This document shows, piece by piece, positions 1 to 8,328 of a DNA stretch of 8,328 bases. The notes under the pieces are model-generated. The model was not told where the DNA came from. It ran no database searches and saw only the letters and a list, made by a program, of their open reading frames with translations. The stretch's first letter is position 1; every line of letters begins with the position of its first letter. Source of the DNA: Nitrospinota bacterium. Its GTDB lineage: Bacteria; Nitrospinota; Nitrospinia; UBA9942; JAHJSF01. The stretch lies in contig JAHJSF010000172.1 of NCBI GenBank assembly GCA_018830405.1, forward strand, positions 1-8,328. The letters are read 5' to 3'. The position numbers were made by a program, and so were the translations under genes.

Positions 1-1
1 A

Positions 2-59
2 GCTACAAATAGGACAGTTTATTTGCTACAAAACCGGACAATTCTATTTGTTGACAACA
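2..59. repeat. Tandem ~24-bp repeats, probable insertion-sequence end
   Basis: Two adjacent units start with the same eight bases, GCTACAAA (2-9 and 25-32), continue with GGACA, and end in TATTT; unit one is 2-24 and unit two 25-49. They are followed by the near-palindrome TGTTGACAACA (49-59). Multiple short subterminal repeats beside a terminal TG...CA are known from IS21-type elements, so I infer the end of such an element whose body lies left of the window. No transposase is visible here, so the family is uncertain. It could also be an unrelated regulatory repeat. Confidence 0.4.
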
Positions 60-151
60 CATTAAGAGAGGAATTTAGGCGGGTATGATTAATAATATCA
101 ATAGCCTAACAGTTATTATCCGGCAATTAGGTTGAAAAATATAGGTCAATG

Positions 152-927: not shown

Positions 928-1845
928 ATGGAAGATAACTCCAACAGTTCAGAATTCCGCTCCGGCTTTGTTTCTATCATAGGAAGACCCAACGTAGGCA
1001 AATCTTCCCTGTCAAACAGGGTGGTGGGGACCAAGACCTCTATCGTCACCAGAAAACCGCAAACCACCCGCAACAGAATTACAGCCATAAGGGATGTTAA
1101 AGACGGGCAGATTATATTTATAGATACCCCGGGAATTCATCGCACTAATACAGCCCTCGGTAAGGCCATGGTGCAGAGTGCCCTTAAGACCTACCATGAC
1201 GCCGATATCCTCCTCTTCCTAACCGATTCCCATTCAGGAATTGAGGAGGAGGACAGAGACATCATAGACAAGCTTAAGGGGTTGAAGCATACCAAGGTCT
1301 TTCTGGTCATCAATAAGATTGATGATGTTAAGGATAGGGATATCCTGCTGAAGGTTATATCGGCCTACAACGAGCTCTACCCCTTTGAAGATACCTTCCC
1401 CATATCGGCCATGACCGGGGAAAATGTGGATAACCTACTCGAAAAAATACGGGCCGCACTCCCAGAGGGTCCGCAATATTTCCCGGAGGGTACTAAAACG
1501 GATCAGCCGGAAAAGTTCATCATGGCCGAGTTTATAAGGGAACAGGTTATTCTCTTCACCGGCGAGGAACTCCCCTACGTTACCGCTGTCGGCATAGACG
1601 ACATTCAGGCTGGAAAAACAGAGGGGGTAAAGATTGTCCAAGCCACCATATATGTGGAGAAGGATTCCCAGAAGGGGATAATAATCGGCAAGAATGGAAG
1701 TATGCTTAAGCAGATAGGCAAAGGGGCCAGAATGGAGATGGAAAAACGCTTTGGGGGCCAGATATATCTAAGGCTCTTTGTTAAGGTTAAGAAAAACTGG
1801 ACCAAAAGCTATAAAGGCTTGTATGACTTCGGGTATAGCGACTAA
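928..1845 (+). CDS. era: GTPase Era, 30S ribosomal subunit assembly factor
   Basis: Era binds the 3' end of 16S rRNA and acts as a GTP-driven checkpoint in 30S maturation. The 305 residues match the family length. The N-terminal GTPase domain shows G1 GRPNVGKS (19-26), the switch region KPQTTRNR (43-50), G3 DTPGIH (66-71), G4 NKID (129-132) and a G5-like SAMTG. The C-terminal KH domain carries the RNA-binding loop IIGKNGSMLKQIG and ends in VKVKKNW. The ATG at 928 places G1 where expected, with a weak GAGAAA upstream. It leads a tight plus-strand cluster: the antiporter starts 35 bases after its stop. Nothing about it looks disturbed. Confidence 0.96.
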   Translation: MEDNSNSSEFRSGFVSIIGRPNVGKSSLSNRVVGTKTSIVTRKPQTTRNRITAIRDVKDGQIIFIDTPGIHRTNTALGKAMVQSALKTYHDADILLFLTDSHSGIEEEDRDIIDKLKGLKHTKVFLVINKIDDVKDRDILLKVISAYNELYPFEDTFPISAMTGENVDNLLEKIRAALPEGPQYFPEGTKTDQPEKFIMAEFIREQVILFTGEELPYVTAVGIDDIQAGKTEGVKIVQATIYVEKDSQKGIIIGKNGSMLKQIGKGARMEMEKRFGGQIYLRLFVKVKKNWTKSYKGLYDFGYSD

Positions 1846-1880: not shown

Positions 1881-2810
1881 TTGCAGACAATTTTATACTT
1901 CATATTGGGCGTGGCCATACTCTACGTGGGGGCAGACTGGTTTGTCAAAGGGGCCTCCAGCCTATCGGCCATATTCAAGATAACCCCCCTAATGATAGGG
2001 ATGGTAGTGGTCTCGGCCGGGACATCCGCTCCGGAACTATTGGTAAGCCTGATGGCGGCCATTCGGGGAAACAGCGACATCTCAATCGGAAACGTGGTCG
2101 GAAGCAATATCGCCAATATCGCCTTAGGGTTAGGGCTTACCTCCATTATCTTCCCGACCAACATAAGGGAGAAGATAGTCAAAAGGGAAATGATCTTTAT
2201 GCTTATCGCCTCTATTGTTTTTGCCATCGTATCGCTCAATGGAACGATAGGGAGGTTAGAGGGGGGATTTCTTCTCATCCTAATGGTCTTCTTTGTAACC
2301 TATAGTTACAACACCGCCAAAAAGGAACATATTGCTAAATCTTTAGAGGTAATCGTAGAGGATAAAAGCCTTACACATTCCCTCTTGTGGCTCACTTTGG
2401 GGTGTGCCTGCCTCCTGTTGGGATCTCACCTCCTGATATCGGCCGGGGTAAAGATGGCGGTCTGGTTCGGTATAAGCGAACTGGTTATAGGTATCAGCCT
2501 AGTTGCGGTGGGGACATCTGTCCCTGAGATAGCCACTTCGATTGTCGCCGCCTACAAGAAAGAGTTTGATATAAGCGTGGGAAACATAGTCGGCAGCAAC
2601 ATCTTTAATATTTTATTCGTAATCGGCTTGGTGGCCACCATTAAACCTCTGCACGTATCTCCCGAAGTAATCACCATACACCTGCCGGTTATGCTTATGT
2701 TTGCTATAGGCCTGCTCCCCATAATGAAAAAGGACCTTATTATTACCAGAATAGACGGGTTGGTATTGCTGGCTTCCTATTCTATCTACATCGGTTATGT
2801 ATATCTTTAA
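1881..2810 (+). CDS. Calcium/sodium antiporter, CaCA family (YrbG-like)
   Basis: This inner-membrane exchanger is expected to move Ca2+ or another cation against Na+, K+ or H+. The 309-residue, strongly hydrophobic protein shows two inverted halves, each with the signature alpha repeat: SAGTSAPELLVSL followed by GNVVGSNIANI in the first half, and AVGTSVPEIATSI followed by GNIVGSNIFNI in the second. The acidic residue in each PE motif is the conserved ion ligand of the family. About ten membrane segments are expected. Translation appears to start at a TTG (1881), supported by AGGAAAG at 1863-1869. It lies 35 bases after era and 15 bases before the mutS fragment, so all three were probably co-transcribed. 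The transported ion cannot be told from sequence alone. Confidence 0.9.
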   Translation: MQTILYFILGVAILYVGADWFVKGASSLSAIFKITPLMIGMVVVSAGTSAPELLVSLMAAIRGNSDISIGNVVGSNIANIALGLGLTSIIFPTNIREKIVKREMIFMLIASIVFAIVSLNGTIGRLEGGFLLILMVFFVTYSYNTAKKEHIAKSLEVIVEDKSLTHSLLWLTLGCACLLLGSHLLISAGVKMAVWFGISELVIGISLVAVGTSVPEIATSIVAAYKKEFDISVGNIVGSNIFNILFVIGLVATIKPLHVSPEVITIHLPVMLMFAIGLLPIMKKDLIITRIDGLVLLASYSIYIGYVYL

Positions 2811-2825
2811 GAAGAGTATTGGAAT

Positions 2826-3074
2826 ATGAGCAGCGAAACCGCCACACCGGCCATGCAGCAGTATCTGAACATCAAGAAGGAGCACCCCGATGCCTTTCTC
2901 TTCTACCGTATGGGAGATTTCTACGAGATGTTCTTTGAGGATGCGGTTGAAGGCTCTAAAGTATTAGAGATAGCCCTAACCACCCGCGACCGTCATAAAG
3001 AGAACCCTATCCCGATGTGCGGCATCCCCCCCACCTCAACAACTCAAAAGGCAGGGAAGCAAGCAGCACATTAG
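2826..3074 (+). pseudogene. mutS: Truncated 5' fragment of mutS (DNA mismatch-recognition ATPase)
   Basis: The fragment encodes only the start of MutS domain I. It includes the mismatch-reading motif [15 protein letters not shown] (residues 26-40; the Phe-x-Glu in DFYEMF contacts the mismatch in the family), then LEIALTTRD and PIPMCGIP. After GIP the sequence is disturbed: the usual YHS..NYIA.L segment is missing or scrambled, KAGKQAA (near 3049-3069) is still recognisable, and the frame then stops at 3072-3074. Full MutS has roughly 850-900 residues, so no ATPase, clamp or connector remains and this copy cannot work in mismatch repair. It follows the antiporter by 15 bases, the likely ancestral position of mutS. 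A second mutS start lies at 8212. Confidence 0.9.
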
Positions 3075-3122
3075 AACTAAGGCTTTTGACCGTATCTTAA
3101 TCAATCATTCAATACCTTCACA

Positions 3123-4262
3123 TCAAAACGCTACGGCTAACTGGACGGTCACCTGATTCGCATTATCTCCTGTACCTCCCTCACTTTCAGAGTAATCCGT
3201 ATCTGTAAAATATTCTACTGCCAAGGCAGTGTTCTCAAAAATATCCATCGACGCCGTCATAATAAAACGTTTTTCAGGTAATGTAAGGGCAAGCGCCTCT
3301 TCGGTTTTCTGATAACCGAAGGCCAATTTCTTTTCTTTACCAATATCATCCCAAGTGTAAGCCGCCTCCACATTCCAAGATACCGGCTTGGCACCTTTAC
3401 CCTCAAAAGCAAGTTCAGTATCCTTAAAGTTATCTAAAGCCGCTACATATTCTACAATAAAGCCAAACTGCCCACAATCAACATGGGTGTGGGCCGAAAA
3501 TCCTTTAACAAGATCTGTAATTTCCGATCCCGGAAGGGAGTCGGACAGACCATCAGAATCGGCAATGTTGCTGATCCATCCGGCGCCAACATCAATTTTT
3601 GTACTATCACTCGCAAAGAGATAACCGACATTTGCTCCAAAAGAGTTTATTGTGTCGCTTGCGTCAACCTTGTTTATGTCGCCATTAAAGGCATAAAATG
3701 ACCCATAAAACTCTTTCGATTCCATACCAAACAGAATCGAACTCTCCCTACTCTCGCCAACTGCTTGAGCAAGGGGAGACTGTATCGTATTGCTCTCAAA
3801 CAAACCGAATGGCACAGTCATCTTACCTGCCGAGAGATAGTAAGGATGTTTTTCGGTATCCCCTATGGTGATATACCCCTGATTAACATCCATCGGTTCT
3901 GTATCATCCTCTTCCCACAAGAGAAGAATATGAGCATTTACCCATTCAGATACTTTTACATCAAACCCCAACTCTACCGTAGCCAGCGTAATATCGCTTT
4001 CGTCTTTTCCGGCATAATTATTCTTCGAAAAAGTCTCAATCTCCACAAGACCACTCAGGCTAACCCGTTCAGAGATTTTTCCAAGATTTGATTCCTGTAT
4101 GTCTAATCTTTCCTCCAAAGCAGTAATCCTTGACTCTGCATTCAGGATGTCTTTGTTCGCATTCTCAGCAAAAACCGGCAATGTTCCCATAAAGAGAATA
4201 CAAACAACCGCAAACACGGTCACTATTTTTTCTATGGTTTTCCTATTAACATCTCTATTCAT
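3123..4262 (-). CDS. Outer-membrane beta-barrel porin, LbtU-like (possible siderophore porin)
   Basis: The 379-residue protein has a signal peptide: charged MNRDVNRK, a hydrophobic run, then a probable cut after PVFA (about residue 32). Next come a short coiled-coil-like stretch (ILNAESRITALEERLDIQESN), alternating beta-strand sequence to the end, and a terminal Phe (LAVAF) typical of outer-membrane barrels. The overall plan resembles the LbtU family, whose Legionella member takes up the siderophore legiobactin. That family match is from memory and the substrate is inferred. I chose the ATG at 4262 because an AAAGGGAGCAAGG purine-rich site precedes it and the signal peptide starts there; an in-frame TTG at 4304 would add 14 unneeded residues. 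It follows the Feo operon by 125 bases on the same strand, with a possible metal-repressor half-site at 4309-4324. Confidence 0.72.
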   Translation of the reverse strand: MNRDVNRKTIEKIVTVFAVVCILFMGTLPVFAENANKDILNAESRITALEERLDIQESNLGKISERVSLSGLVEIETFSKNNYAGKDESDITLATVELGFDVKVSEWVNAHILLLWEEDDTEPMDVNQGYITIGDTEKHPYYLSAGKMTVPFGLFESNTIQSPLAQAVGESRESSILFGMESKEFYGSFYAFNGDINKVDASDTINSFGANVGYLFASDSTKIDVGAGWISNIADSDGLSDSLPGSEITDLVKGFSAHTHVDCGQFGFIVEYVAALDNFKDTELAFEGKGAKPVSWNVEAAYTWDDIGKEKKLAFGYQKTEEALALTLPEKRFIMTASMDIFENTALAVEYFTDTDYSESEGGTGDNANQVTVQLAVAF

Positions 4263-4308
4263 TTTCCTTGCTCCCTTTGTTAAACCGATTAAACAAACAG
4301 ACAATTCT

Positions 4309-4324
4309 TTCGAGATTGTCTAAC
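4309..4324 (-). promoter_or_regulatory. Possible degenerate DtxR-type operator upstream of the porin
   Basis: On the minus strand this reads GTTAGACAATCTCGAA. The first nine bases equal those of the site upstream of the repressor gene (GTTAGACAA), but the second half is poorly kept: 11 of 16 overall. It lies 46-62 bases upstream of the porin ATG, a sensible place for an operator. A separate inverted pair, GACAAT/ATTGTC (4300-4305 and 4315-4320), overlaps it. The site is suggestive rather than proven. Confidence 0.3.
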
Positions 4325-4387
4325 ACCTCACGTTTGTGATACCTCCGGTTTTCCAGTCGGGCACAATTTGTAAGAATTAATAAAGAG

Positions 4388-4561
4388 TCAGCTCTGCTTG
4401 CACAGTGGCGGACATCTCTTAAACCTTCTTTTCTCTTTTTTTTCGACCTGAACTATTTCTGAGTCATGTATAGTTATCACCACCTCCCCGTAGTTCACCT
4501 GTTGTATGAAATCGACGACTTCAGTCAAAACGTTTTTATCAACCTTCCTCTCAACAGTCAT
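4388..4561 (-). CDS. Small DUF2292/YezD-like protein
   Basis: This 57-residue protein resembles the DUF2292/YezD family in its core VLTEVVDFIQQVNYGEVV followed by ITIHDSEIVQVEKKEKRRF, matching the family pattern 'YGs..I.vhdskIVQIEktEK.R'. The family's function is unknown to me. Unlike the short family core, it ends in a cysteine pair, RCPPLCKQS. The frame is open further up to an ATG at 4618. I prefer the ATG at 4561 because AAGGGGGT (4566-4573) sits just upstream and the family core then begins at the usual distance. Its start overlaps the last 11 bases of the Cys-rich gene, which suggests coupled translation as the last gene of the Feo operon. It may have an iron-linked or redox role, but that is inference from position only. 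Confidence 0.78.
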   Translation of the reverse strand: MTVERKVDKNVLTEVVDFIQQVNYGEVVITIHDSEIVQVEKKEKRRFKRCPPLCKQS

Positions 4562-4694
4562 GCTTACCCCCTTCACAGATGCTATTGTTTTCACATCCAC
4601 AACATGAACTTTTCCCATTAAAACTTTTTATGATATTTCGAGCAAGAAGCCCGATGCTTATAAAAACAATCGTCAATACAATTATCTTTTCCAT
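4551..4694 (-). CDS. FeoB-associated Cys-rich membrane protein
   Basis: This is a 47-codon gene. An N-terminal membrane segment (roughly residues 4-18, IIVLTIVFISIGLLA) is followed by a basic stretch and a cysteine cluster SSCCGCENNSIC, ending KHDC: five cysteines in all. This is the plan of the small FeoB-associated Cys-rich family found after feoB in many bacteria; its exact job is unsettled, with iron hand-over or support of the FeoB pore proposed. The ATG lies one base after the feoB stop codon, and the feoB 3' end supplies a purine-rich TTGGGGAT as ribosome site. Its stop overlaps the start of the DUF2292-like gene by 11 bases. The spacing, topology and cysteines together make this a real gene despite its size. 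Confidence 0.85.
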   Translation of the reverse strand: MEKIIVLTIVFISIGLLARNIIKSFNGKSSCCGCENNSICEGGKHDC

Positions 4695-4695
4695 T

Positions 4696-6792
4696 TTATA
4701 TCCCCAATCCTAAAATCATTCCTCCCTGGTACACAATAAAAGAGGCAGACCATGCCATAACCGTTGTCCAAAACATAAGGAACAGTGTCCACTTTAACTT
4801 CGAACCGGATTCCTCGTAAAATACTGCCATAGCAACAAAACATGGCATATAAATAAGGCAGAAGATAAGAAACGACATCGCCTTCAAGGGACTCCACGAA
4901 GGATCTTTTTGCAATTTCTCCCTCAATGTCTCTGTCTCTTCAACATCAACCTCTCCAAGCGAATAGATCGTTCCAAAGGTACTTACAACAACCTCTTTAG
5001 CGGCTACCCCTGCAAGCAGAGCGATTCCGCTTCGTCCATCCATCCCGATAGGTTTTACAAGCGGCTCAATAAGGCTGCCTGCCTTACCCGCATAACTCTG
5101 TTCTAACTGTATCGTTGCAATCTCGCTATCTGTCATACCCTCCTTTGTTACTCCTGAATTTTGAGGAAATGTAAACCCTGCCCAGATAATGATCGAAATA
5201 AGAACAATGATTGTCCCCGCTTTTTTTACGTACAGCCAGCCTCGCTCCCCCATCTTGAGGAGTAAACCTTTGATCGTTGGAACCCTGTAAGGGGGAAGCT
5301 CCATAACAAAATGAGAAACTTCCCCTTGAAAAACAAACTTTTTTAAAAGCCAGGCAGAGCAAAAGGCGATTACTATACTCAGGATATACATCAGAAACAT
5401 AATATTCGTGCTATAGCTCGCCGGGAAAAATGCACCGATAAAAAGAGCAAATATCGGTAGTTTGGCTCCACAGATCATAAATGGGACGACCATCATCGTA
5501 ATAAGCCGATCCTTTTTGCTTTCAAGTGTACGTGTCGCCATAATCCCGGGGATAGCACACCCGTTAGTCGAAATCATCATTGGCAGAAAAGACTTCCCAT
5601 GAAGACCAAACTTGCTCATCAGCCTATCCATAACAAAGGCTGCGCGTGCCATGTAACCGGAATCTTCAAAAAATGCAATCGCAAAAAACATAAAAAGCAC
5701 CAGTGGCAAAAACCCCAATACGCCTCCGACACCACCAATAATCCCGTCAACCAGAAAAGATTGAAACAGCCCTGCAGGAACTATCGAAGCGACCGTTTCG
5801 CCAAACCAGCCGAAGAAGGTCTCAAAATAACCAACGACCGGCTCAGAAAAAGTAAAGGTAAATTTAAAAATGGCGTACATAACAAGAGCGAATATAGGGA
5901 TTCCGAATAACCTGTTCAGGACAATCCTGTCGATACTATCCGACAAATCGTGCCTCTCCTCAATTGTCGTCTCCTTCAATGCCTGCGTACACGCCCCACT
6001 GATAAAACCGTAACGCCTGTCTGCAATAATCACTTCAGGATCATCCCCGAAATGAGCCTGCAAATGACTCCTGCTCTTTTCGTTTTGGGCGGTAGCTTCC
6101 TGTCCGACAGAACAGTTGCGGATAATATCCAAGACAGAGGAATCATTTTCCAACATCTTTATAACAAGCCATCGCCATGGATATCTATTAACCAACTCTT
6201 TATCTTTTTTGAGTATTTGTTCCAGCTTACACATCTCCTCTTGAACTTCCGGCCCATATTTTACATGGATTTTTGATGCCTTAATCTTGTTCTCGTGGGT
6301 TTTTATGACGGCGGCCAAAAGCTCTTTTGTCCCTATATTTTTATTTCCAATGGTCGGTACAATAAGCATTGCAAGCAGCTTTGACAATTCTGAGTAATCG
6401 ACATCTTGCCCTTTCTTTTCTGCCATATCGCTCATGTTCATTGCCAGAATCAGGGGAGTATCCAGTTCCATCAACTGGGTGACAAGATAAAGATTTCTTT
6501 CCAAGTTGGATGAGTCAATAATGCTTACTATGACATCCGGATGTTCCTGAACAATGAAATCTCTCGCTACAAACTCATCTTCGGAATAGGGAGACAAACT
6601 GTATGTTCCGGGCAGATCAACAACATTTATCTCATAATCTTGGAAACTTGTTTTGCCCTCCTTTTTCTCAACGGTTACCCCCGGATAATTACCCACATGC
6701 TGGCGTGCACCGGTCAAATTATTAAAAATTGTGGATTTTCCCGAGTTTGGGTTACCGGCAAGCGCGATAGTGATCTGTTTTTTCTTCATCAT
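4696..6792 (-). CDS. feoB: Ferrous iron transporter FeoB
   Basis: FeoB is the inner-membrane Fe2+ permease, with a cytosolic G-protein domain. The 698-residue protein shows G1 GNPNSGKS (13-20), the G2 Thr40 in GVTVEKKEG, G3 DLPG (59-62) and G4 NMSD (119-122). A helical spacer follows, then the C-terminal pore with the two Gate motifs: NGCAIPGIMATRTLE and, further on, CGAKLPIFALF, each holding the conserved cysteine. The last part (LIYMPCFVAMAVFYEE) matches the FeoB C-terminal membrane block. Length is usual for the family and no frame damage is seen. Two ATGs occur in a row; GAGGAGT lies just upstream, next to the feoA stop, 6 bases away. It is the core of the feoA-feoA-feoB operon. Confidence 0.97.
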   Translation of the reverse strand: MMKKKQITIALAGNPNSGKSTIFNNLTGARQHVGNYPGVTVEKKEGKTSFQDYEINVVDLPGTYSLSPYSEDEFVARDFIVQEHPDVIVSIIDSSNLERNLYLVTQLMELDTPLILAMNMSDMAEKKGQDVDYSELSKLLAMLIVPTIGNKNIGTKELLAAVIKTHENKIKASKIHVKYGPEVQEEMCKLEQILKKDKELVNRYPWRWLVIKMLENDSSVLDIIRNCSVGQEATAQNEKSRSHLQAHFGDDPEVIIADRRYGFISGACTQALKETTIEERHDLSDSIDRIVLNRLFGIPIFALVMYAIFKFTFTFSEPVVGYFETFFGWFGETVASIVPAGLFQSFLVDGIIGGVGGVLGFLPLVLFMFFAIAFFEDSGYMARAAFVMDRLMSKFGLHGKSFLPMMISTNGCAIPGIMATRTLESKKDRLITMMVVPFMICGAKLPIFALFIGAFFPASYSTNIMFLMYILSIVIAFCSAWLLKKFVFQGEVSHFVMELPPYRVPTIKGLLLKMGERGWLYVKKAGTIIVLISIIIWAGFTFPQNSGVTKEGMTDSEIATIQLEQSYAGKAGSLIEPLVKPIGMDGRSGIALLAGVAAKEVVVSTFGTIYSLGEVDVEETETLREKLQKDPSWSPLKAMSFLIFCLIYMPCFVAMAVFYEESGSKLKWTLFLMFWTTVMAWSASFIVYQGGMILGLGI

Positions 6793-6798
6793 CTTTTT

Positions 6799-7023
6799 TT
6801 ACTCCTCTTCAACAACGATTTTAGTTGCCAACCCATGCCCCAAGGCAACCTTTGCCCCCTTTATAAGCACAGTAACAGGGCCATAGCCACTATTTTGTAA
6901 CACCTTCAACTTCTCTCCCGGCACCAATCCCATGTCGGCAAGGTGCCTCTTTGCACCCATCCCCCCCTCAATCGAAACAAACGTTAAATCTGTCTTTGTG
7001 GGTGCCTTAATTAACTTAAGCAT
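6799..7023 (-). CDS. feoA: FeoA-family SH3-like protein, second copy (next to feoB)
   Basis: FeoA is a small cytosolic SH3-fold protein needed for FeoB-dependent Fe2+ uptake, thought to act on the FeoB G-protein or pore. This 74-residue copy has the family core GGMGAKRHLADMGLVPGEKLKVLQ followed by GPVTVLIKGAKVALGHGLATKI, with the signature L.DMGL.PG turn and a terminal acidic VVEEE. The ATG at 7023 has AGAGGAC upstream and overlaps the end of the preceding feoA by 13 bases, implying coupled translation. FeoB follows after 6 bases. It differs clearly from the upstream copy in sequence, so the pair is an old paralogue pair, not a fresh duplication. Confidence 0.92.
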   Translation of the reverse strand: MLKLIKAPTKTDLTFVSIEGGMGAKRHLADMGLVPGEKLKVLQNSGYGPVTVLIKGAKVALGHGLATKIVVEEE

Positions 7024-7262
7024 AATTTGTCCTCTTCTACATATACATAAATCAGAGCAGCTTCCTCTTTTCGTAAACTCAGATGATATCCTCTGACCTT
7101 AATATCGATAGGGTCTCCCAAAGGCGCAACCTTAACAACCTCTACCGTAGTGCCCGGAATAATACCCATATCAAGCAATTTTTTTCTAAGTTGCCCTTCT
7201 CCGAGTATCTTCTTAACCCGCCCGGATTCTTTAGGGTTTAATTTATTTAAAGTTCTTTCCAT
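7011..7262 (-). CDS. feoA: FeoA-family SH3-like protein, first copy (operon leader)
   Basis: This 83-residue FeoA begins MERTLNKL and carries the family core GQLRKKLLDMGIIPGTTVEVVKVAPLGDPIDIKVRGYHLSLRKEEAALIYV. The LLDMGI.PG turn and the PLGDP....RG..LSLR stretch are the clearest family marks, more typical of canonical FeoA than those of the neighbouring copy. The ATG at 7262 has AAAGGAT about seven bases upstream. It is the first gene of the feo operon: a 16-base palindrome (7300-7315) that I read as a metal-repressor operator lies 38-53 bases upstream. Two FeoA proteins per FeoB are common in anaerobes; the division of labour is not known from sequence. Confidence 0.94.
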   Translation of the reverse strand: MERTLNKLNPKESGRVKKILGEGQLRKKLLDMGIIPGTTVEVVKVAPLGDPIDIKVRGYHLSLRKEEAALIYVYVEEDKLCLS

Positions 7263-7299
7263 TTAGATATCCTTTCTATAGTTTTACTTGTGTAAGTTT

Positions 7300-7315
7300 G
7301 TTAGATTACCCTAAC
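7300..7315. promoter_or_regulatory. Probable DtxR/MntR-family operator upstream of the feo operon
   Basis: The sequence GTTAGATTACCCTAAC is an inverted repeat (GTTAG/CTAAC arms) differing at only three of 16 positions from the site at 7884-7899. On the minus strand it directly follows TATAAA (7321-7316), a possible -10 element, so a bound repressor would block the feo promoter. Arms of the TTAG...CTAA type are usual for DtxR-family boxes. The factor is presumably the product of 7339-7836. Confidence 0.62.
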
Positions 7316-7338
7316 TTTATATGTAAAAAAATTACTCC

Positions 7339-7836
7339 TTATCGACCCTTGCTTCTATAGCTCGCTGTGCTTTGCATTTCAACAATCTTCCCTGTTCTTA
7401 AATAATGATTAAACCTTTTTAGCCACTCAGCAGAATTGTCACCGCCCATACCAATTTCTACAAATTGAATAAATTTTGATAACTTGGCAAACGTTTCGGC
7501 ACTTATCGCATGTTCCATCTTGCAGGCATCCTCTGATGCTATGTCGTTATCTATAGATAAAACCTTTGTGAGGAATTTCAGTAGAACGTCATGTTTATCT
7601 TGAACCTTGGCTGCAACTTCCTCCCCCTTGGTGGTAAGATTCACATATCCGTATCTTTCGTATACAACAAGGCCCTTTTGAGAAAGATTCTTTAAGGCAG
7701 CATTAACACTTGAACTCTTTACGGCCAAAGAAGAACCTATATCACGTACTCTCGCAACATCATTCTCTTTTTTAAGTAGAGCTATCGTTTCCAAATAATC
7801 TTCCATGCTGGAACTCAATTCATCACATGCCTTCAT
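7339..7836 (-). CDS. DtxR/MntR-family metal-dependent transcriptional repressor
   Basis: This cytosolic protein is expected to bind Fe2+ or Mn2+ and then repress metal-uptake genes. Its 165 residues hold an N-terminal winged helix (about 12-70, with recognition helix near SSSVNAALKNL) and a dimer and metal-binding helical domain. By alignment with B. subtilis MntR and C. diphtheriae DtxR from memory, the likely ligands are Asp13 and Glu16 (SMEDYLE), His82 (KHD), and Cys105, Glu108 and His109 (ACKMEH). The Asp is MntR-like while the Cys is DtxR-like, a mixed site. No C-terminal SH3 domain is present, as in MntR; the free FeoA proteins next door have that fold. The ATG at 7836 has a strong AGGAGG at 7844-7849. 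It shares strand and operator type with feo and lies 76 bases upstream of it. Confidence 0.9.
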   Translation of the reverse strand: MKACDELSSSMEDYLETIALLKKENDVARVRDIGSSLAVKSSSVNAALKNLSQKGLVVYERYGYVNLTTKGEEVAAKVQDKHDVLLKFLTKVLSIDNDIASEDACKMEHAISAETFAKLSKFIQFVEIGMGGDNSAEWLKRFNHYLRTGKIVEMQSTASYRSKGR

Positions 7837-7866
7837 AATTATTCCTCCTTTTAAAAACCAACCTTT

Positions 7867-7880
7867 TAGAGATATCTCTA
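7867..7880. repeat. Perfect 14-base palindrome in the repressor leader
   Basis: TAGAGATATCTCTA is a perfect palindrome between the predicted promoter and the ribosome site of the repressor gene. It is three bases from the operator at 7884-7899. It could be a second protein site or chance in AT-rich DNA. Confidence 0.45.
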
Positions 7881-7883
7881 TTT

Positions 7884-7899
7884 GTTAGACAAGCCTAAC
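7884..7899. promoter_or_regulatory. Probable DtxR/MntR-family operator upstream of the repressor gene
   Basis: The site GTTAGACAAGCCTAAC is an imperfect palindrome with GTTAG/CTAAC arms, nearly the same as the one in front of feoA (7300-7315). It overlaps the predicted -10 of the repressor promoter, so binding would give negative autoregulation. It lies 48-63 bases upstream of the repressor ATG. Confidence 0.62.
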
Positions 7900-7920
7900 A
7901 ACGTCCTCTCTTTTTGTCAA
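7892..7920 (-). promoter_or_regulatory. Predicted sigma-70-type promoter of the repressor gene
   Basis: On the minus strand a perfect -35 TTGACA (7920-7915) is followed after 17 bases by TAGGCT (7897-7892), a weak -10 inside the operator palindrome. Transcription would then begin near 7885, giving a leader of about 50 bases with a strong ribosome site. The weak -10 makes the exact start uncertain. Confidence 0.5.
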
Positions 7921-8092
7921 ATGTTTTTAAAAAAAATAACTACTACTTAACGGACTATTATATATACCGATTTGAGAGGAAATGCACTATCCAATAATAG
8001 TCACCAGCTCCTTACTCATTAGATAGGCAAGAATAGTACTATTTCCTTACGCAAAACCCCGGTTTGTCTGACCGTGTTAGATAATGGTATGA
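7921..8092. other. AT-rich gene-free stretch, island side of the right boundary
   Basis: I see no supportable gene here. It contains an A-run (7928-7938 region), a perfect 12-base palindrome AATAGTACTATT (8032-8043) and stray GTTAGA-like words that lack the second operator arm. Any promoter for the downstream mutS copy must lie here or inside the transposase remnant, but none stands out. Confidence 0.35.
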
Positions 8093-8200
8093 CCAAAAAA
8101 GAGATACATTAGAATGGGCTCTATCGTTTACACCGATAAATTTAAAAGTTATGATAGTCTCATGTTATACAGTTATAGTCATTCATATATCTACAATTAA
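8093..8200 (+). pseudogene. Remnant of an IS1595-type transposase (DDE/ISXO2-like domain)
   Basis: Read from 8093, the frame gives PKKRYIRMGSIVYTDKFK followed by [17 protein letters not shown] and a stop at 8198-8200. The block GSIVYTDKFKSYDSL is characteristic of IS1595-family transposases around the second catalytic Asp (YTD), where intact proteins go on with a GYRH..IDH-type sequence; here only S.SHSY.Y remains. A stop codon (8090-8092) precedes the frame and no further transposase sequence is seen on either side, so this is a decayed fragment of about 35 codons of a roughly 220-300 residue protein. It ends 11 bases before the second mutS start, marking a mobile-DNA scar at the island's right boundary. 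Confidence 0.65.
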
Positions 8201-8211
8201 CACCCTTAAAA

Positions 8212-8328
8212 ATGATAAAAACCGATCAAACAACCCCGGCCATGCAGCAGTATCTGAATATCAAGAAGGAGCACCCCGATGCCTTCCTCTTCTATCGGAT
8301 GGGTGATTTCTACGAGATGTTCTATGAA
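8212..8328 (+). CDS. mutS: MutS, DNA mismatch-recognition ATPase, 5' part (continues past the window)
   Basis: The first 39 codons of a second mutS run to the window edge: [15 protein letters not shown], then [24 protein letters not shown]. The mismatch-contact motif DFYEMF is intact. From CCGGCC onward it matches the fragment at 2826 at 86 of 93 bases, with six silent changes and one Phe-to-Tyr change. Upstream of that the leader and first codons are unrelated. The ATG has no visible Shine-Dalgarno, being preceded by an AT-rich stretch. It begins 11 bases after the transposase remnant and is now cut off from the era-antiporter cluster. If it is full length beyond the window, it is the cell's working copy. 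Confidence 0.88.

Follow-up and report, generated by a model that had tools for sequence, protein, structure and literature searches.

Gene content of the mutS locus

The window analysed here, 8,328 nt long, is the complete contig C164 of the draft genome G000 from a Nitrospinota bacterium. The genome comprises 1.42 Mb in 185 contigs and is 87% complete with 0.03% contamination; its draft state and uncultured relatives indicate that it is a metagenome-assembled genome. Along the contig follow queD (minus strand), era, a calcium/sodium antiporter gene, a mutS stub, a block of iron genes on the minus strand and a second mutS start. The era gene (928..1845, plus strand; NCBIfam NF000908, E 6e-109) encodes the only full-length GTPase Era found in the genome. 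The antiporter gene (1881..2810, plus strand; TIGR00367, E 2e-71) stops 15 nt before the mutS stub, an operon-like spacing. An earlier note on this DNA had described a stub of about 80 codons, iron genes on the opposite strand and a second mutS start, and this layout is real according to ORFs and profile matches. The note had also named an uninterrupted era-antiporter-mutS locus in close relatives as a point of comparison. In the three genomes of the order that were compared, all from other families, mutS is adjoined by other genes, and era-antiporter-mutS was rejected as a conserved layout. Misbinning of the contig was likewise rejected, since it bears the bin's sole full-length Era along with all mutS pieces found there; a dispersed repeat of the genome in the left part of the contig also speaks against it.

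The mutS stub (2826..3029, plus strand) consists of codons 1-68 with real MutS homology. Its ORF continues to a stop at 3074 (2826-3074, 82 codons); MutS domain I is recognised at residues 7-73 (PF01624, E 7e-25), and MutS models of NCBIfam match at about 5e-30. In a residue-level comparison the homology was limited to codons 7-68, ending at MCGIP (nt 3029), and up to codon 68 the frame stays open. Since 3030-3122, aligned to a MutS profile (up to 33 proteins) with frameshifts allowed, scored no better than shuffled sequences (p = 0.52), the last 14 codons of the ORF are probably not mutS. On the same grounds we rejected frameshift-hidden MutS sequence past codon 68, for which KAGKQAA had been suggestive. 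The spacer between the stub and the stop codon of the first iron gene (3030..3122) is thus devoid of MutS signal, and it is not repeated in the genome: a search with 3038-3125 gave no other match in the rest of the assembly. A run of seven C residues (3026..3032, plus strand) spans the left junction and is a candidate microhomology.

The second mutS start (mutS2; 8212..8328, plus strand) comprises codons 1-39, where the contig breaks off; from 8233 (codon 8, TPAMQQ) onwards it is homologous to the stub. Upstream lies an AT-rich intergenic stretch (7899..8211) with one promoter-like match at 8127-8155, and the number of such matches in this stretch is not above chance. The rest of mutS2 past codon 39 was looked for on the other contigs of the genome; no further piece of the gene was found, and a continuation there was rejected. 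Exact shared stretches at contig ends, examined as a clue to assembly forks, vary from 58 to 136 nt.

The iron block is a metal-uptake cassette

Between the two mutS starts lie 5.2 kb in which all genes are encoded on the minus strand. Read in their direction of transcription, the block begins with a metal-dependent repressor of the DtxR/MntR family (7339..7836; PF02742 and PF01325, MntR models E 3e-25), followed by a first feoA (7011..7262; PF04023, E 1.5e-24), a second feoA (6799..7023; PF04023, E 2e-13) and feoB, encoding a ferrous iron transporter (4696..6792; TIGR00437, E 2e-185) that is 75% identical to an Omnitrophota FeoB. Behind feoB come a gene for a small DUF2292/OscA-like protein (4388..4618; PF10055, E 3e-13) and one for an LbtU-family siderophore porin (3123..4304; NF033652, E 2.5e-99), the likely start of which is the ATG of residue 15 at about 4262. 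A small protein of the DUF2292/OscA type is also encoded behind feoB in two related cassettes (L006, 12485-12604; L008, 3132-3239). This suggests a link of the protein to metal uptake, beyond what the family name gives.

Two DtxR/MntR-type palindromes were detected, TTAGATTACCCTAA upstream of feoA (7301..7314) and TTAGACAAGCCTAA upstream of the regulator gene (7885..7898); by motif count, two exact palindromes of this type are observed in the window against 0.09 expected. Similar sites are present at the same places in three related cassettes (L004-L006). The features of a Feo uptake cassette are all found: feoA and feoB together, and a metal-dependent regulator with its putative boxes. Since the gene order recurs in related cassettes and similar palindromes in L004-L006, the block is an ordinary, probably self-regulated metal-uptake cassette. 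Profile searches with the named genes and the larger shadow ORFs of 3030-8211 detected no integrase or transposase, and phage structural or integration genes are likewise absent from the block. The search of the window for tRNA and Rfam elements also gave none, and candidates of all three kinds (integrase, tRNA, Rfam element) were therefore rejected. The genome encodes three tyrosine recombinases (PF00589 matches), all of them on other contigs.

Foreign origin of the block

The GC content of the block is 41.2%, compared with 45.8 ± 1.9% in equal-size chunks taken from 20 of the genome's other contigs, and only 3% of these background chunks deviate as far in tetranucleotide composition. In its left part, the contig has a composition typical of the genome. 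Contigs C40 and C60 are shorter than the chunks used and hence had no effect on this test; that they are made of repeats was rejected, as a direct check gave no repeats, and they probably contain N stretches. A FeoB of the block's type (E ≤ 1e-100) is absent from the other 76 genomes of the phylum that were searched. The distribution of the cassette is phylum-restricted: the closest FeoB proteins, 65-75% identical, belong to Omnitrophota, Auribacterota and one further bacterium, and the order dtxR-feoA-(feoA)-feoB recurs in cassettes of Omnitrophota and Auribacterota, in some of them with DUF2292 or LbtU genes behind. Atypical composition and patchy distribution among relatives, the marks of a genomic island, are thus both found. 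Composition, absence of this FeoB type from the 76 other genomes and the affiliation of the nearest cassettes all agree with the earlier proposal that the iron block was horizontally acquired. A plasmid origin was rejected, because the FeoB matches on plasmids are all below 60% identity, the best among the matches listed being about 41%. The genome carries a second feoA-feoA-feoB locus (C51:9157-11292; L045, L099), the FeoB of which is 50% identical to that of the block and the GC content of which is nearer to the genome's own.

The two mutS starts resemble diverged alleles

Stub and mutS2 are identical at 88 of 95 nt (92.6%, E 2e-34), the aligned part covering 95 of the 117 visible mutS2 bases. 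The alignment begins at the T codon of TPAMQQ, and nothing recognisable is shared before it. Eight of the 32 visible codons differ, seven of them synonymously and one exchanging F for Y; under neutral change such a proportion has a chance of about 1e-4, although the sample of only 32 codons is small. Most of the divergence therefore appears to have arisen while both mutS copies worked, in different lineages. The two ends thus differ as expected for alleles from separate lineages, as had been proposed, and from their sequences the truncation of the stub seems to be recent relative to their divergence. Two mutS N-termini are present only in this genome among the 77 of the phylum. Since none of the 76 others, all from outside its family, shows two mutS starts, this layout is no old feature of the whole phylum.

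Comparison with known systems

In Vibrio splendidus 12B01 and other Beta- and Gammaproteobacteria, mobile elements are located inside mutS and supply a new mutS start (PMC5296598). An integrase is encoded in these elements, their insertion site is the HTPMMQQ motif near codon 10, and excision was shown for some of them. The locus described here resembles them in its orphan host start, its foreign DNA and a new mutS start that brings an upstream region of its own. It differs from them in that an integrase is absent and the stub does not end within HTPMMQQ but reaches codon 68, about 56 codons beyond TPAMQQ. These elements provide a new start for an otherwise complete mutS; here the new start is present at 8212 and the contig ends at codon 39. 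Because of the missing integrase and the longer stub we do not claim membership in this group.

The streptococcal precedent invoked in the earlier note proved to be a weaker parallel than the Vibrio elements, and the geometry found here matches neither. According to two papers (PMC3430984, PMC4689407), the SpyCI islands of Streptococcus pyogenes are phage-like and target mutL by site-specific recombination. Like SpyCI, the block has interrupted a mismatch-repair gene at its 5' end, whereas it is without phage genes and the target is mutS rather than mutL.

Homology-facilitated illegitimate recombination (HFIR) has been demonstrated for a few species by transformation in the laboratory (PMC6382021). 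Its products are homologously anchored on one side, and their illegitimate junction has a microhomology of 3-10 bp. Such an anchor together with an illegitimate microhomology junction would yield the layout seen here, and HFIR may have acted at this locus: a C7 run marks the left junction, and on the right there is homology to mutS. With the five related Omnitrophota and Auribacterota cassettes (L004-L008) the block shares its gene order and a FeoB of 65-75% identity, and with L004-L006 the DtxR-type boxes; unlike these cassettes, it adjoins mutS. The flanks examined of all five contain no match to mutS, and the same block at mutS in other genomes, as envisaged in the earlier note, was thus not recovered among them.

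Origin of the arrangement

The explanation that we prefer, and to which we give about an even chance of being correct, is that a fragment containing the cassette and a mutS 5' end from a congener recombined into the resident mutS, homologously on one side and illegitimately on the other. A DtxR/MntR-controlled ferrous-iron and porin cassette of the Omnitrophota/Auribacterota type would have settled beside mutS in a close relative, from the same genus or species complex as this bacterium, and a DNA fragment with the cassette and the relative's mutS 5' end would then have entered this lineage. On the right side, homologous recombination would have taken place within or downstream of mutS; on the left side, an illegitimate join at codon 68 of the resident mutS, possibly via the C7 microhomology, would have left resident codons 1-68 behind era and the antiporter gene as a dead stub. 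The gene, presumably intact downstream of the second start, would now use the imported start, the donor having supplied its 5' part. Since no integrase is found inside the block, recombination is the better route. Of the two routes in the earlier note, homologous recombination or loss of an integrase, we accordingly retain the former and propose an illegitimate left junction besides. Several points count against this explanation: a donor genome with the cassette adjoining mutS was not found, also not among the five related cassettes with the flanks examined; the remainder of mutS2 is missing from the assembly; no clear Shine-Dalgarno sequence precedes mutS2; and the data come from an 87% complete metagenome assembly.

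The contig could also be a chimera, in which era-antiporter-mutS of one population was joined in assembly to the cassette-mutS of a co-occurring congener. In a draft of 185 contigs, apparently binned from a metagenome, such a join would yield the layout seen here; moreover, the two mutS copies resemble alleles of two related species, the contig terminates inside the second copy and the base composition shifts across the block. However, a false join usually requires a shared repeat, while 3038-3125 is unique in the assembly and only C7 is present at the junction, and the left part holds the genome's own dispersed repeat, so that at least this half is native. The uniqueness of the join region lowers the risk of a false join but does not remove it, and we regard a chimera as unlikely, though a serious contender. 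Rather improbable is a site-specific element of the Vibrio mutS type, replacing the 5' end of its target, reduced to its cargo and either mobilised in trans or fossilised. An orphan host mutS start, a foreign block and a new mutS start with promoter give the matching picture (PMC5296598), and the two copies differ upstream of TPAMQQ; but the block is without integrase, its gene content is that of an ordinary metal cassette, and insertion at HTPMMQQ predicts an orphan start ending near codon 13, not at codon 68.

Single-crossover (Campbell) integration of a circle with the cassette and a 3'-truncated mutS predicts a truncated hybrid copy, the block and a full copy, in line with the layout. Yet plasmid replication or mobilisation genes are absent between the mutS copies, and a circle of exactly the cassette and a mutS piece is ad hoc, which makes this route very unlikely. 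The mutS-carrying circular molecule of the earlier note thus lost ground, as no evidence for a circular intermediate was found. An old duplication of the mutS 5' end within the lineage, with the cassette between and now fixed, is disfavoured and extremely unlikely: a dead stub should collect non-synonymous changes and frameshifts, but of the eight codons that differ seven do so synonymously, the frame has stayed open, and two mutS starts occur in none of the 76 other genomes of the phylum.

Possible consequences of the proposed mutS replacement

We regard the case as a new instance of known processes. If the preferred recombination event is real, it is a well-marked replacement of a mismatch-repair gene together with adaptive cargo in one event in an uncultured lineage, and it falls outside the known proteobacterial mutS elements that are driven by an integrase. 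Recombination of diverged DNA is under the control of mutS, and therefore a swap of mutS alleles during DNA import could alter later uptake of foreign genes. More speculatively, and with low probability, the mutS 5' end might serve as an integrase-free docking site, where a 5-kb metal cassette travels with a replacement mutS start that mends the broken target; mismatch-repair alleles would then hitch-hike with iron genes between related uncultured bacteria.

Repeats in the left part of the contig

A dispersed repeat of 164 bp occupies 690-853 of the window; it folds into a hairpin over nearly its whole length (z -5.4 versus shuffles). About 36 further copies with 69-93% identity are distributed across many contigs of the genome, and a longer class of the repeat measures about 196-209 bp; in kind, the family resembles palindromic MITEs or REP-like elements. 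The contig opens with AGCTACAAATAGGACAGTTTATTTGCTACAAAACCGGACAATTCTATTTG (window 1-60), of which a 26-bp piece is found again close to the ends of contigs C30 and C110; it may represent an insertion-sequence end at which the assembly broke.
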